A stretch of DNA of 33,719 nucleotides from Candidatus Limnocylindria bacterium (lineage in GTDB: Bacteria; Chloroflexota; Limnocylindria; P2-11E): positions 1-33,719 of the forward strand of contig DATDEH010000032.1 in the NCBI GenBank assembly GCA_036523395.1, in the 5' to 3' direction. Both the position numbers and the translations under genes were made by a program. Positions within the stretch are counted from its first letter, which is position 1. Each line of letters opens with the position of its first letter. The notes beneath the pieces are model-generated. The model worked only from the letters and a program-made list of their open reading frames with translations. It did not search any database and had not been told where the DNA came from. Positions 13,944-18,646 of this stretch are shown here, in pieces.

Positions 13944-15809
13944 ATGGCGGCACACGGCGGCGGCGGCGGCGGGCACGGCGGCGGCGGATTCGTCCATGAG
14001 GACGAGATCCTCGGGAAGGCGTACGACGCGCGCCTGACGCAGCGTCTGGTCGGCTATCTCGCCCCGTACAAGATCTGGGTGATCGTCTCGCTGGTCCTGC
14101 TCCTCGCGATGTCGCTGGCGCAGATCGCGCCGCCGATCATCGCCAAGTTCATCGTCGACCAGGCCATCATCCCCGCCGTGAGCGGCGAGCTCGGCCGCGA
14201 CGAGGCCTTCGGACGGCTCGCGCTCCTCGGTGTCCTCTACCTACTCGTGCTCGCGGCTGGGGCCGCGCTGCGCTTCGGTCAGACGCTGCTGACGACGTGG
14301 GTCGGGCAGCGCGCGATGTACGACCTTCGCCTCGAGCTGTTCCGCCACCTGCAGTTCCTGTCTCTGGGCTTCTTCGACCGCAACCCCGTGGGCCGCCTGA
14401 TGACGCGCATCACGAACGACATCGACGCGCTCACCGACATGGTCACCCGCGGCGTGGTCTCGATCTTCGGCGATGTCGCCATGCTCGTGCTCATCTCGAT
14501 CGCGATGCTGTTGCTCGACTGGCGACTCGCCCTCATCACGTTCGTGTCGCTGCCGATCCTCACCGCCATCACGGCGTACTTCCGCGGCATGATGCGCGAG
14601 TCGTTCCGCTCGATCCGTATCCGTCTCGCCCGCGTCAACGTCTATCTCAACGAGACGCTCTCGGGGATGGCGATCGTTCAGCTCTTCACGAGAGAGAAGC
14701 AGACGTTCGATCAGTTCGACGTCCTGAACCGGGACCTGCTGACTGCGAACCAGGGGCAGGTCCGCGCCATGAGCGTCTTCCAGCCGACGGTGAACTTCAC
14801 GCGCGCGGCGACGACCGCGGCGCTCTTCGTCGTCGGCGCGTACTGGATCGGGCGGAGCGAGCTCAGCCTCGGGACGTTGGTGGCGTTCTGGCAGCTGCTC
14901 AACCAGTTCTTCCAGCCGATCCTCGATCTGTCGGAGAAGTACAACATCATGCAGGCGGCGATGGCCTCGTCGGAGCGCGTGTTCAGCATGCTGGACACGA
15001 AGCCGACGATCGTCGATCCAGCGAGCCCGGTCGAGCTACCACACGTGCGCGGCGAGATCCGCTTCGACAACGTTTCCTTCGCCTACAACGAGGGCGAGTG
15101 GGTGCTGCGAGAAGTGGACCTGACCATCAGCGCGGGTGAGAGCGTCGCGATCGTCGGCGCGACGGGGGCGGGGAAGACCTCGATCATCAGCCTGATCTCG
15201 CGCTTCTACGACGTGCAGAAGGGTCGCATCCTGCTGGACGGCGTCGACCTGCGCGACATGCGCCAGGCCGATGTCCGGCGGCACGTCGGCGTCGTCCTCC
15301 AGGACCCGTTCATCTTCGCCGGCACGATCGCGTCCAACATCCGCCTGAACGAGTCGTCGATCGGCGACGAGCAGGTGCGCGCCGCCGCGCGGTTCGTGAA
15401 CGCCGACAAGTTCATCGACCGTCTTCCCGACGGTTATGCGACGGTCGTGACCGAGCGTGGCTCGACGCTCTCCGTCGGCCAGAAGCAGCTTCTTGCGTTC
15501 GCGCGTGCCATCGCATTCAACCCGGAGATCATGCTCGTGCTCGACGAGGCGACGTCGTCGGTGGACACCGAGACCGAGCACCTCATCCAGGACGCCCTGA
15601 AGAAGCTGATGCAGGGCCGGACCTCGATCATCATCGCCCACCGTCTCTCGACCATCCAGAACGTCGACCGCATCATCGTGCTGCACAAGGGACGCGTGGT
15701 GGAGATGGGCACGCACCGCGATCTCCTCGCGCAGCGTGGCGTCTACCACCGGCTGTACGAGCTTCAATACCGCGCGCACGAGACAGACTCGTCGGTGAGG
15801 ACGGCCTAG
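13944..15809 (+). CDS. ABC exporter half-transporter with consensus catalytic glutamate
   Basis: This is the 621-residue partner of the preceding gene, one base after its stop. The N-terminus is a Gly/His-rich stretch (residues 4-15) that might bind metal. Six membrane helices follow (about 35-325), then the ATPase domain: Walker A GATGAGKTS (about 408), signature LSVGQKQ (about 509) and Walker B LVLDEATSSVD with catalytic Glu (about 535). The altered signature (LSVGQ) faces the degenerate site of the partner, as known for heterodimeric multidrug or lipid exporters. The transported compound is unknown. Confidence 0.92.
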   Translation: MAAHGGGGGGHGGGGFVHEDEILGKAYDARLTQRLVGYLAPYKIWVIVSLVLLLAMSLAQIAPPIIAKFIVDQAIIPAVSGELGRDEAFGRLALLGVLYLLVLAAGAALRFGQTLLTTWVGQRAMYDLRLELFRHLQFLSLGFFDRNPVGRLMTRITNDIDALTDMVTRGVVSIFGDVAMLVLISIAMLLLDWRLALITFVSLPILTAITAYFRGMMRESFRSIRIRLARVNVYLNETLSGMAIVQLFTREKQTFDQFDVLNRDLLTANQGQVRAMSVFQPTVNFTRAATTAALFVVGAYWIGRSELSLGTLVAFWQLLNQFFQPILDLSEKYNIMQAAMASSERVFSMLDTKPTIVDPASPVELPHVRGEIRFDNVSFAYNEGEWVLREVDLTISAGESVAIVGATGAGKTSIISLISRFYDVQKGRILLDGVDLRDMRQADVRRHVGVVLQDPFIFAGTIASNIRLNESSIGDEQVRAAARFVNADKFIDRLPDGYATVVTERGSTLSVGQKQLLAFARAIAFNPEIMLVLDEATSSVDTETEHLIQDALKKLMQGRTSIIIAHRLSTIQNVDRIIVLHKGRVVEMGTHRDLLAQRGVYHRLYELQYRAHETDSSVRTA

Positions 15810-15811
15810 TT

Positions 15812-16012
15812 CTGCGGGCCTGGCTGGAACCCGAGCCGGCGATCCGTCTCGACGGGTCCACCTGCGAGATCTCCGCTGCCTTTGAAGGCGGCGCCGAGAT
15901 CACAGTCGTCAAGCTTTCGGGACACGCTGAGCGGGCGAACATTCAAGGGCTGCTGACTGAGTTGCAGGGTCTCGCGCAGCAGCGCGGGCTGATGCCGTCA
16001 CCTGGCTTGTGA
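15812..16012 (+). CDS. Small hypothetical protein, probable CTG start
   Basis: A 66-residue frame opens three bases after the ABC exporter stop and ends at TGA 16010-16012. The translation looks like a real small protein: RLDGSTCEISAAFEGGAEIT, then TVVKLSGHAERANIQGLL, ending in a short helix. No ATG, GTG or TTG is available before this block. CTG 15812 is the best start, with GGTGAGG 11 bases upstream, and coupling to the exporter stop may help. It has one Cys, no membrane helix, and is unrecognised. The opposite strand offers no better gene. Confidence 0.4.
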   Translation: MRAWLEPEPAIRLDGSTCEISAAFEGGAEITVVKLSGHAERANIQGLLTELQGLAQQRGLMPSPGL

Positions 16013-16041
16013 GAGCCCCAGCCGCTCTGTAGCAGGCCGCG

Positions 16042-16085
16042 GCCGTTCGAAAGACGGCTTGGGCGGGGACCCGAAGGCCCCCGCC
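16042..16085. terminator. Hairpin cluster between convergent genes
   Basis: Two inverted repeats are adjacent: GCCGT/ACGGC (16042-16046 and 16054-16058), and GGCGGGG/CCCCGCC (16062-16068 and 16079-16085). They lie between the plus-strand small ORF and the minus-strand GlsB-like gene and could end transcription from both sides. No long T-run is present. Confidence 0.4.
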
Positions 16086-16096
16086 GAGCCGGACAC

Positions 16097-16372
16097 TCAG
16101 ACGGTGACGCGTCGTCCTTGCGTGTAGCGGTAGATCGCGAGAACGATGAGTGCGCCGATGATCGAGCCGATCCAGCCGGCCGACGGCGGAGGAAGTGCCG
16201 CGCTGCCTTGGAAGAGGAGCTGCGCCAGCCAACCGCCGACGAATGAGCCGACGATGCCGAGAACGATCGTCGGGATCCAGCCCATCGAGTCGCGTCCCGG
16301 CATCAGGAACCGCGCGATGACGCCGACGATCGCGCCGAAGATGATCCAGGTGACGATGGCAGTGAGGTCCAT
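16097..16372 (-). CDS. GlsB/YeaQ/YmgE family stress-response membrane protein
   Basis: This 91-residue protein with about three membrane helices matches the transglycosylase-associated (GlsB/YeaQ/YmgE) family. It begins with the helix TAIVTWIIFGAIVGVIARFL, followed by the conserved MPGRDSMGWIPTIVLGIVGS and a Gly-rich second helix (FVGGWLAQLLF), and ends with a third helix and a basic tail. Family members are induced by envelope or general stress; the exact role is unknown. A strong ribosome-binding site (AAGGAGG, minus strand of 16381-16387) lies eight bases before ATG 16372, unlike many genes here. Confidence 0.9.
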   Translation of the reverse strand: MDLTAIVTWIIFGAIVGVIARFLMPGRDSMGWIPTIVLGIVGSFVGGWLAQLLFQGSAALPPPSAGWIGSIIGALIVLAIYRYTQGRRVTV

Positions 16373-16426
16373 GGAGTTGTCCTCCTTTCCACGTGCTGCT
16401 CCCTGCCCTGCGCAGGCAGCGTGCCA

Positions 16427-16444
16427 GGCGCCCGAAAAGGCGCC
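16427..16444 (-). terminator. Hairpin after the lipoprotein gene
   Basis: GGCGCC is repeated on both sides of a six-base loop (16427-16432 and 16439-16444). On the minus strand the loop starts with TTTT. It lies six bases past the stop of the DUF4232-like gene, so it may end that transcript or stall it before the GlsB-like gene. Confidence 0.4.
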
Positions 16445-16449
16445 CGCGC

Positions 16450-17082
16450 CTAGTGCACGGGCTCCTGGAACGGGTACACGGTGAACGTGGACGGCCCCGA
16501 CGCGTCATCGCACCGCGCCACCCCGAGGGTCGAGACCGCCTTCCCCGCGACGTCGACGAACGTGCCCGCGATGACGCCTCCGGCATCGGGGAGCGTCACG
16601 CGGAAGCTCATCGGTAGCGCGTCGTCGCAATAGTTCTCCCAGCGCAGGGGCGCGCTGGCGCCGATACCCAGGAGTCCGGCGGGATCCGGCCGGAATTCGC
16701 TGACCGGGACGACCACGAGCTTCGGGGTGCCGGCGGCGACGCTGGCGCTTCTCACGTCGAGCGGCGCTCCGCCGGTGGTGAGGAGCACGACATCGGGGTT
16801 CCCGCGTAGCGAGCAGGCCGCGGTACCGCGGTTCGCGACGAAGACCGCGCCGGCGAAGAAGTCCGTGGTCTGGACACCGGCGGCGACCGCCTGCAGCTGC
16901 GACGCGATGCACTTCGGAACGTTGGTCGGCTCAGCGGTCGGCGACGACCTCAGCGTCGCGGTCGGTGCAGTGCTCACGAGCGCAGCGGTGCGCGAGGCGC
17001 TCGGAGCGGGCGAAGGCGTCACGACCACGCTCGTAGGTGCGCTGCACGAGACGAGCGTCACCGCCAGCAGCAGACGAAACAT
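16450..17082 (-). CDS. Lipoprotein with DUF4232-like domain
   Basis: This 210-residue protein has an N-terminal lipoprotein signal (FRLLLAVTLVSC, lipobox LVSC with Cys at 13) and a Ser/Thr/Pro-rich linker to about residue 55. A beta-sandwich-type domain begins at CIASQLQAVAAG and contains FVANRGTAACSLRGNPDVVLL, the pattern of DUF4232. The Cys pair in this domain could form a disulfide outside the cell. The function of the family is unknown. ATG 17082 is preceded by TAACGT six bases upstream and no ribosome-binding site. The gene diverges from the nucleotidase gene with only 22 bases between starts. Confidence 0.75.
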   Translation of the reverse strand: MFRLLLAVTLVSCSAPTSVVVTPSPAPSASRTAALVSTAPTATLRSSPTAEPTNVPKCIASQLQAVAAGVQTTDFFAGAVFVANRGTAACSLRGNPDVVLLTTGGAPLDVRSASVAAGTPKLVVVPVSEFRPDPAGLLGIGASAPLRWENYCDDALPMSFRVTLPDAGGVIAGTFVDVAGKAVSTLGVARCDDASGPSTFTVYPFQEPVH

Positions 17083-17088
17083 CGTTGG

Positions 17089-17098
17089 ACGTTAGCAT
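17089..17098. promoter_or_regulatory. Overlapping divergent -10 boxes (bidirectional leaderless promoter)
   Basis: On the plus strand TAGCAT (17093-17098) is followed by six bases and GTG 17105. On the minus strand TAACGT (17094-17089) is followed by six bases and ATG 17082. The two boxes share the TA at 17093-17094. Both starts of transcription would fall on or next to the first codon. Confidence 0.5.
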
Positions 17099-17104
17099 CG
17101 CGCT

Positions 17105-18646
17105 GTGCTCCGCTTCATTCCTGCGCTGGCGCTTGCGATCGCGTGCGCGTGCTCGTCCGCAGTCACGCCAACGCCGACGTCGTCGGCGATCGCCGACGAC
17201 CGCATCCAGCTCCTGCATACCGACGATATCCACGGACACCTGGATGCGGACATCGTGCAGAGCGCGAGCGCAAGCTCCGCGTTCCGTGCCGGCGGGATGG
17301 CGCAGCTCGCGGGGCAGGTCGCCGCGTTCCGCGCGCGTGCTCCCCAGCGGACGCTGCTCATCGACGCGGGCGACGCCTGGCAGGGCACGTTCATCTCGAA
17401 CGCGAACAAGGGCGAAGCGGTCACGAAGGCGATGAACCTCATGCACTACGACGCGCTGGCCGTCGGGAACCACGACTTCGATTGGGGACAGGACGTGCTC
17501 GCCCAGCGCGCGAAGGAAGCGACCTTCCCGTTCCTGGCGGCGAACGTCGTCGAGAGCAAGACGGGACGAGCGCCGCCGTACCTGAAGCCGTTCGAGGTGC
17601 GCGACCTCGGCATCGCGCGCGTTGGGATCATCGGAGTCACCAATCCCGGCTCGGCGACGATCGTGAAGGCGACGAGCGTCGCCGGGCTGCAGTTCCAACC
17701 AGCGGCCGACTCCATCAGACCGCTGATCGCCGAGGTGCAGAAGCAGGCCGACATCGTCGTCGTCGCGGCGCACATCGGAATGACCGAAGCGGTGCAGCTC
17801 GCGCGCGACGTGCCGGGGATCGACGTGATCGTCGCGGCCCATGACCACCTGCCGATCCAGACCGCGCGACTTGAGGGCCGGACGACGATCGTCGACGCGG
17901 GCGCCTACACGCAGTACGTCGGTCGGCTGGAGATCATCGTCGACCGAGCGACGCACAAGATGACCGATGCGGTGCGCGGCAGTGCCCTCATGCCGGTCGC
18001 GGCCAATCCGAACGTCAAGCCGGATCCGGAGATCGCGAAGCTCGTCGACGATCGCCGCGCCGAGGGCGAGAAATACACCTCGCGCGTGGTCGGCCGGACG
18101 ACGGAGCCCCTCATCAATACCCGCGAGGAGACCGGCTTCGGGAACCTCATCACGGACGCGTTCGTCGAGTACGGCCGCCAGCAGGGATGGAAGACCGACG
18201 TGGCGTTCTACAACATGGCCGGGGTCCGCGCCTCGTTCCCCGCGGGACAGCTGACGTACGGCCAGCTCTACGAGGCGCTGCCGTTCTCGAACACCGTGGT
18301 GAACGTCGATCTCACCGGCGCCGACCTCGCCGCGATCATCGACCGCGCCGCGTGCGTGAACGGGCGGCTCCACATGGCCGGCGTCGTCGTGTCGTTCCGC
18401 TTCGACAACGGCCTGCCGAACTGCGTGAAGAGCATCACCGTCGCCGGAGCGCCACTCGCATCGACTCGGACGTATCACGTCGCGACGATCGACTATCTGC
18501 TGCTGGGCGGCGACGGGCACACCGGTTTCGCGAAAGGCACGAACGTCATCTATGGCGACGTCGAAGTCGACGTCGTCGCCGCGTACATCACGGCGCACTC
18601 GCCGGTGAGTCCGAAGGTCGAAGGCCGGCTCGCGCCGTCGTCGTAG
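17105..18646 (+). CDS. 5'-nucleotidase / UDP-sugar hydrolase-like (UshA family) lipoprotein
   Basis: This 513-residue protein is probably exported, with a signal ending in ALAIACAC that could be a lipobox. The metallophosphatase domain (about 33-300) carries the two-metal motifs HTDDIHGH (39-45), DAGDAWQG (87-94), GNHDFD (121-126), and a late AAHDH where GHxH is usual. The C-terminal 5'-nucleotidase domain (about 330-505) has GFGNLITDAF, NMAGVRASFPAG and the substrate-stacking region near DYLLLGGDG. It would release phosphate from nucleotides or nucleotide sugars outside the membrane. The start is GTG 17105. The stop overlaps the next start by one base. Confidence 0.88.
   Translation: MLRFIPALALAIACACSSAVTPTPTSSAIADDRIQLLHTDDIHGHLDADIVQSASASSAFRAGGMAQLAGQVAAFRARAPQRTLLIDAGDAWQGTFISNANKGEAVTKAMNLMHYDALAVGNHDFDWGQDVLAQRAKEATFPFLAANVVESKTGRAPPYLKPFEVRDLGIARVGIIGVTNPGSATIVKATSVAGLQFQPAADSIRPLIAEVQKQADIVVVAAHIGMTEAVQLARDVPGIDVIVAAHDHLPIQTARLEGRTTIVDAGAYTQYVGRLEIIVDRATHKMTDAVRGSALMPVAANPNVKPDPEIAKLVDDRRAEGEKYTSRVVGRTTEPLINTREETGFGNLITDAFVEYGRQQGWKTDVAFYNMAGVRASFPAGQLTYGQLYEALPFSNTVVNVDLTGADLAAIIDRAACVNGRLHMAGVVVSFRFDNGLPNCVKSITVAGAPLASTRTYHVATIDYLLLGGDGHTGFAKGTNVIYGDVEVDVVAAYITAHSPVSPKVEGRLAPSS

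Follow-up and report, generated by a model that had tools for sequence, protein, structure and literature searches.

Can the 22 bp that separate two divergent genes be enough to start the transcription and the translation of both? The question is raised by a locus of an uncultured Chloroflexota bacterium, located in the window, i.e. the whole stretch of 33,719 nucleotides that we analysed (contig C32 of a draft genome of 3.0 Mb in 128 contigs). A first-pass annotation had proposed that this gap is a bidirectional, leaderless promoter for two surface proteins, at which only one polymerase can bind at a time. The plus-strand gene product has, according to Pfam, metallophosphatase and C-terminal domains of 5′-nucleotidase; the minus-strand product is DUF4232-like, on the basis of a sub-threshold match. 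The N-terminus of each protein is a short hydrophobic segment that resembles a lipoprotein signal, as judged by eye, and a surface location is plausible for the pair. Of the four genomes of the genus other than that of the window, two (G002 and G004) contain orthologues of the DUF4232-like protein (64% identical), and three more genomes have weaker matches, which gives 6 out of 41 genomes when the window genome is counted. The nucleotidase has no match at all in G001. Inside its coding sequence we also observed a 22-bp palindrome (GGCGATCGCC core, positions 17179-17200) that matches itself at 100% on the opposite strand.

Read directly from the sequence, the plus strand from 17080 to 17107 is CAT CGTTGG ACGT TA GCAT CGCGCT GTG, and the gap between ATG 17082 (minus strand) and GTG 17105 (plus strand) is CGTTGGACGTTAGCATCGCGCT. 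The two boxes lie exactly where they had been placed initially: TAGCAT plus six bases leads to GTG 17105, TAACGT plus six bases leads to ATG 17082 on the other strand, and the TA is shared (Table 1). If d is the number of bases between box and start codon, then d = 6 on both strands; the first T of each box is thus at -12, the position of the genome-wide peak described below, and the predicted RNA starts are 23 bp apart. The region from -20 to -4 of either start is devoid of a Shine-Dalgarno (SD) 4-mer. The boxes open with TAG (plus) and TAA (minus), each of which is a stop codon in frame with its start and 12 nt 5′ of it, so that no start further upstream is possible for either gene. Together with the signal-like N-termini of the two proteins, this makes both starts well placed. 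Any -10 box of the TAA or TAG type at d = 6 has this property of being an in-frame stop 12 nt before the start codon (here 17093-17095 on the plus strand and 17094-17092 on the minus strand). An excess of such boxes (TARNNT) at d = 6 was considered and rejected: they make up 23 of 42, which is not clearly more than at other distances.

The full pattern CAY-N6-ANNNTANNNT-N6-RTG, composed post hoc when the site had already been seen, occurs once in the window; its mean occurrence in shuffled sequences is 0.03, and 3 of 100 shuffles contained it at least once. It must be kept in mind that the second box comes cheap by chance, because TAGCAT already supplies the TA and only the A at 17089 has to be fixed in addition. 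A generic scan for sigma-70 promoters, which requires a TTGACA-like -35, and for terminators found nothing between 16000 and 18500. No Rfam family reached its gathering score between 16000 and 18700, and a search for inverted repeats of at least 8 nt from 17040 to 17150 revealed no dyad at the boxes.

Table 1. Coordinates of the features of the locus in the window (boxes are predicted)
Feature	Position	Strand	Remarks
-10 box TAGCAT, nucleotidase gene	17093..17098	+	six bases 5′ of GTG 17105-17107; at the d = 6 peak of TANNNT in the genome; unchanged in G002 and G004; in G003, TAGCAT is 8 nt 5′ of a GTG
-10 box TAACGT, DUF4232-like gene	17089..17094	-	six bases 5′ of ATG 17082-17080; invariant in G002 and G004
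TA step common to both boxes	17093..17094		-12/-11 of each box, if RNA starts coincide with start codons
14-bp block GACGTTAGCATCGC	17088..17101		invariant in the window genome, G002 and G004
5′-nucleotidase/metallophosphoesterase, lipoprotein-like signal, GTG start	17105..18646	+	PF02872 E = 4.1e-30; PF00149 E = 5e-06
DUF4232-like, lipoprotein-like protein, ATG start	16450..17082	-	PF14016 E = 4.2e-05; 24.2 bits, gathering cut-off 27 (sub-threshold)
Small Transgly_assoc protein, downstream of DUF4232-like gene	16097..16372	-	PF04226 E = 2.6e-11
ABC exporter gene	13944..15809	+	two minus-strand genes lie between ABC exporter and nucleotidase genes

Whether such boxes mark leaderless genes can be judged from the rest of the genome. 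We used 61 stretches totalling 850,532 bases (28% of the genome, window included), in which a self-trained codon-pair gene model called 676 genes with 1838 candidate ATG or GTG starts. Starts assigned by this home-made caller are uncertain; for the present pair, it picked 17297 and not 17105 for the plus gene, and 16977 for the minus gene. TANNNT was found 42, 25, 19, 18 and 12 times at d = 6, 7, 8, 9 and 10 respectively, as compared with 0 to 4 times at each of d = 0-5 and 3.6 times on average at d = 11-24, so that about nine tenths of the boxes at d = 6 (42 seen, 3.6 expected) are above background. Around internal ATG and GTG codons, taken as a control, there were 0 to 1.5 occurrences at each d and no peak. 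Three relatives gave the same onset: in G001 (same genus; 318,407 bases sampled), G008 (same family; 213,621 bases) and G032 (same class; 282,023 bases), 9, 11 and 18 boxes were found at d = 6 versus 0 to 2 at d = 0-5, the peak of G001 being flat across d = 6-8. Moreover, genes with a box at d = 6-10 seldom have an SD 4-mer. In the window genome there are 8 out of 115 such genes, versus 157 out of 550 for the other genes (genes whose start is less than 60 bases from the end of a stretch are omitted and the remaining starts are as called); the corresponding figures for the three relatives are 2/34, 2/21 and 4/44 versus 93/192, 57/138 and 78/163. A -35 consensus was sought upstream of 67 boxes at d = 6 or 7 and no column exceeded 0.34 bits. 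The leaderless part of the first-pass proposal thus finds strong statistical support in the TANNNT peak at d = 6, in its identical onset in three relatives and in the SD 4-mers, which are scarce in box-bearing genes and absent before both starts of the pair. These data also point to leaderless genes being common in this group: from the excess of counts at d = 6-10 over those at d = 11-24, their share is estimated at about 11-19% of the called genes in the four samples.

The divergent nucleotidase/DUF4232-like pair is kept in G002 and G004. The block GACGTTAGCATCGC, which covers both boxes, is identical in the three genomes; in the two flanking genes, 46-48% of the third codon positions are unchanged. 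The spacing between box and start codon is six bases in all three genomes on the minus side; on the plus side, it is six in the window genome and seven in G002 and G004. The conservation amounts to two lineages only, because G002 and G004 are near relatives, with 86-91% DNA identity at the locus. Invariant runs longer than 14 nt do exist in the coding sequences: 35, 20, 19 and 16 nt in the nucleotidase gene and 15 nt in the DUF4232-like gene. A particularity of G004 (L016) is that the first codons of the nucleotidase gene are duplicated directly, and almost perfectly, over 18 bp, which creates two possible GTG starts.

A look at more distant relatives gives an idea of how the arrangement may have arisen. 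Among ten relatives outside the genus (L006-L015), in which the nucleotidase is about 48% or more identical, nine have the nucleotidase gene 3′ of an ABC exporter gene on the same strand, at a distance of one base to about 200 bases; in the tenth, L012, no ABC exporter gene precedes it. An illustration of the tight configuration is provided by G008, where a single base separates the two matches (G008:C62, 18940-20781, then 20783 on). In the window, the minus-strand Transgly_assoc and DUF4232-like genes separate them, and in G003 they are 5.4 kb apart (G003:C221, ABC match to 34361, nucleotidase match from 39785). Probably, minus-strand genes split an ABC-transporter/nucleotidase operon, so that the nucleotidase gene needed a promoter of its own, and the box of the new DUF4232-like neighbour was then built over the nucleotidase box by sharing its TA. 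That the split preceded the second box is what we infer.

Is the window pair a unique case? Among 173 divergent neighbour pairs from four genomes, a box is present on the left in 57, on the right in 53 and on both sides in 18, the last number being as predicted by independence (57 × 53/173, i.e. 17.5). The boxes overlap in 8 of the 18 two-sided pairs, or 8 of all 173: six through a TANNNTA core (separation of 18 bp, leader length allowed for) and two through ANNNTANNNT (23 bp). The two 23-bp cases are the window pair and an unrelated divergent pair of G008, MpaB-type oxygenase/GatC (L140:1210-1233), with the same architecture of 22 bp, six bases on each side and a shared TA. Because two G001 cases are, by eye, orthologues of two window-genome cases and have kept the box (L124/L110 and L129/L116), the eight represent six distinct loci, and these include the window pair, present by selection. 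With seven decoy motifs applied to the same pairs, 1211 motif-pair tests produced 5 two-sided cases, of which one was at 18 or 23. When open frames only (100 aa) were scanned, TANNNT was found 5 times at the 18-bp separation versus 0 or 1 for the decoys, and once at 23 bp versus 0 to 3 for six decoys; one decoy, ATNNNT, whose own overlapping separation is 19, reached 4 there, close to the 5 of TANNNT at 18. As the 23-bp geometry is no commoner than in decoys, we dropped the open-frame scan as support for the window pair. The concentration at exactly 18 and 23 was likewise discounted as independent evidence: it is partly built in, and overlapping geometries are arithmetically favoured because fewer bases are fixed.

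The other pairs with a shared element include a sigma-54 gene, a GidB/cupredoxin pair and a DAHP synthase pair. The sigma-54 gene of the window genome faces a divergent Pfam-less gene across a TANNNTA core (L116:14759-14778), and the box is kept in the orthologous pair, assigned by eye, of G001 (L129:4131-4153). Five shared-box pairs were scanned for a functional theme and none was apparent; they are mostly housekeeping or metabolic, and one of their ten proteins is without family.

The geometry, the genome-wide leaderless signature, the conservation, the recurrence of shared boxes and the change in synteny are all visible in the sequences. The reading that we consider probable is that the gap is a minimal bidirectional leaderless promoter made of two overlapping, opposed -10 elements (ANNNTANNNT), with no recognisable -35. 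RNA polymerase carrying the housekeeping sigma factor would bind in either orientation, melting would begin at the shared TA, and transcription would start seven bases past the box, at the first base of the start codon (G 17105 or A 17082); both mRNAs would be leaderless and translated without an SD site. Two-way firing is likely, the minus side being the most uncertain. The bidirectional character put forward at first pass can be retained as a prediction made from sequence alone, favoured by the symmetry, the conservation and the recurrence of the architecture and weakened by the ease with which the second box can appear by chance. As for the claim that one polymerase binds at a time, mutual exclusion at overlapping boxes is physically likely, yet a regulatory effect should not be assumed, because in E. 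coli basal transcription at five tested bidirectional promoters was reported to be too low for polymerase competition (PMC12825309, 2026). In the same report, substantial activation of one direction did affect the divergent RNA. At the present locus, occupation of one orientation at a time would probably have a minor effect if the promoters are weak, and would become relevant if one side were strongly activated.

A different explanation is that only the nucleotidase box is real, TAACGT being a by-product of the TA plus a chance A, and that the DUF4232-like gene is transcribed from elsewhere, for instance from inside the nucleotidase coding sequence, where another minus-strand TANNNT begins at 17228. 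In keeping with it, the second box is cheap once TA is shared, the 23-bp geometry was not enriched relative to decoys in the open-frame scan, and G003, which has no DUF4232-like match, nevertheless has TAGCAT 8 nt before a nucleotidase GTG, with the proviso that the nucleotidase start of G003 is not fixed because the plus frame is open further upstream. What makes us regard this explanation as unlikely is that the minus box is placed exactly at d = 6 and is invariant in the window genome and two congeners, that no SD 4-mer precedes the minus gene, and that no other minus-strand TANNNT is found between its start and 17228.

The conserved block could alternatively be the operator of a dimeric regulator, with incidental matches to TANNNT, and the fact that ACGTTAGCAT is conserved and partly palindromic (6 of 10 positions, counted by eye) goes in this direction. 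An operator would not, however, be expected to stand, relative to both start codons, precisely at the genome-wide leaderless peak, and the inverted-repeat search mentioned above showed no dyad at the boxes; we find this explanation very improbable. Finally, closely spaced starts in a GC-rich genome might have AT-containing hexamers between them by mere chance, as the lack of a promoter in the generic sigma-70 scan of 16000-18500 might also suggest. Against chance stand the expectation of 0.03 for the full pattern in the window, the 42 boxes seen at d = 6 where about 3.6 are expected, and the conservation, which together leave it hardly credible.

More speculatively, promoters of about 17-23 bp may form a recurrent class in the clade, in which a single symmetrical -10 element alone drives two leaderless mRNAs at once, so that promoter, RNA starts and translation starts form one fixed unit; such promoters might form when operons are split, and might couple genes via polymerase exclusion. 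This generalisation is tentative and we are inclined to doubt it more than to believe it. If both RNAs of the window pair start as predicted, then 22 bp hold what two genes need for initiation at both levels, transcription and translation. The conserved window pair gains interest from the repeated occurrence of this minimal element in the clade, and the symmetrical elements found between unrelated gene pairs constitute a test set for the coupling of divergent genes by shared -10 elements.

How does the locus compare with known systems? In E. coli, the symmetry of -10 elements permits polymerase to bind either way, and among divergent start separations 18 bp is reported as the commonest, 10 and 23 bp being also common (PMC12825309). 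Bidirectional promoters were defined by start separations of 7-25 bp and, in the Salmonella chromosome, are biased to regions between divergent genes (PMC10268837). With these promoters, described by Warman, Grainger and colleagues, the window pair has in common the opposed (here predicted) -10 elements that share bases, the predicted separation of 23 bp and the placement between divergent genes. It differs from them in that both its RNAs are predicted to be leaderless, with the start codons at the RNA starts, and in being described from sequence. Many bacteria are reported to have leaderless genes in which TANNNT stands about 12 nt ahead of the start codon (Zheng et al. 2011, PMC3160421), and such genes were tested by experiment in Deinococcus, in a study of the -10 motif (PMC12340547). 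The window genes resemble these in having the first T 12 nt before each start, no SD and, in a GC-rich genome, boxes whose three middle bases are of low information; unlike them, the two boxes are opposed and overlapping. The survey of Zheng et al. gives a leaderless signal in 4 of 12 Chloroflexi genomes, involving 4.0-5.7% of genes, as compared with our 11-19% or so, a comparison that is only rough because the methods differ. The word ‘divergent’ has no match in the main text of PMC3160421 and PMC12340547 (one in PMC3160421 if reference lists are included), nor has ‘bidirectional’ in that of PMC12340547. Titles and abstract openings of the open-licence papers listed describe no shared leaderless divergent promoter, which is not a claim of absence. 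In its predicted form, the window pair fits the descriptions of bidirectional promoters and of leaderless genes together: both features are known, and their combination here is very compact.
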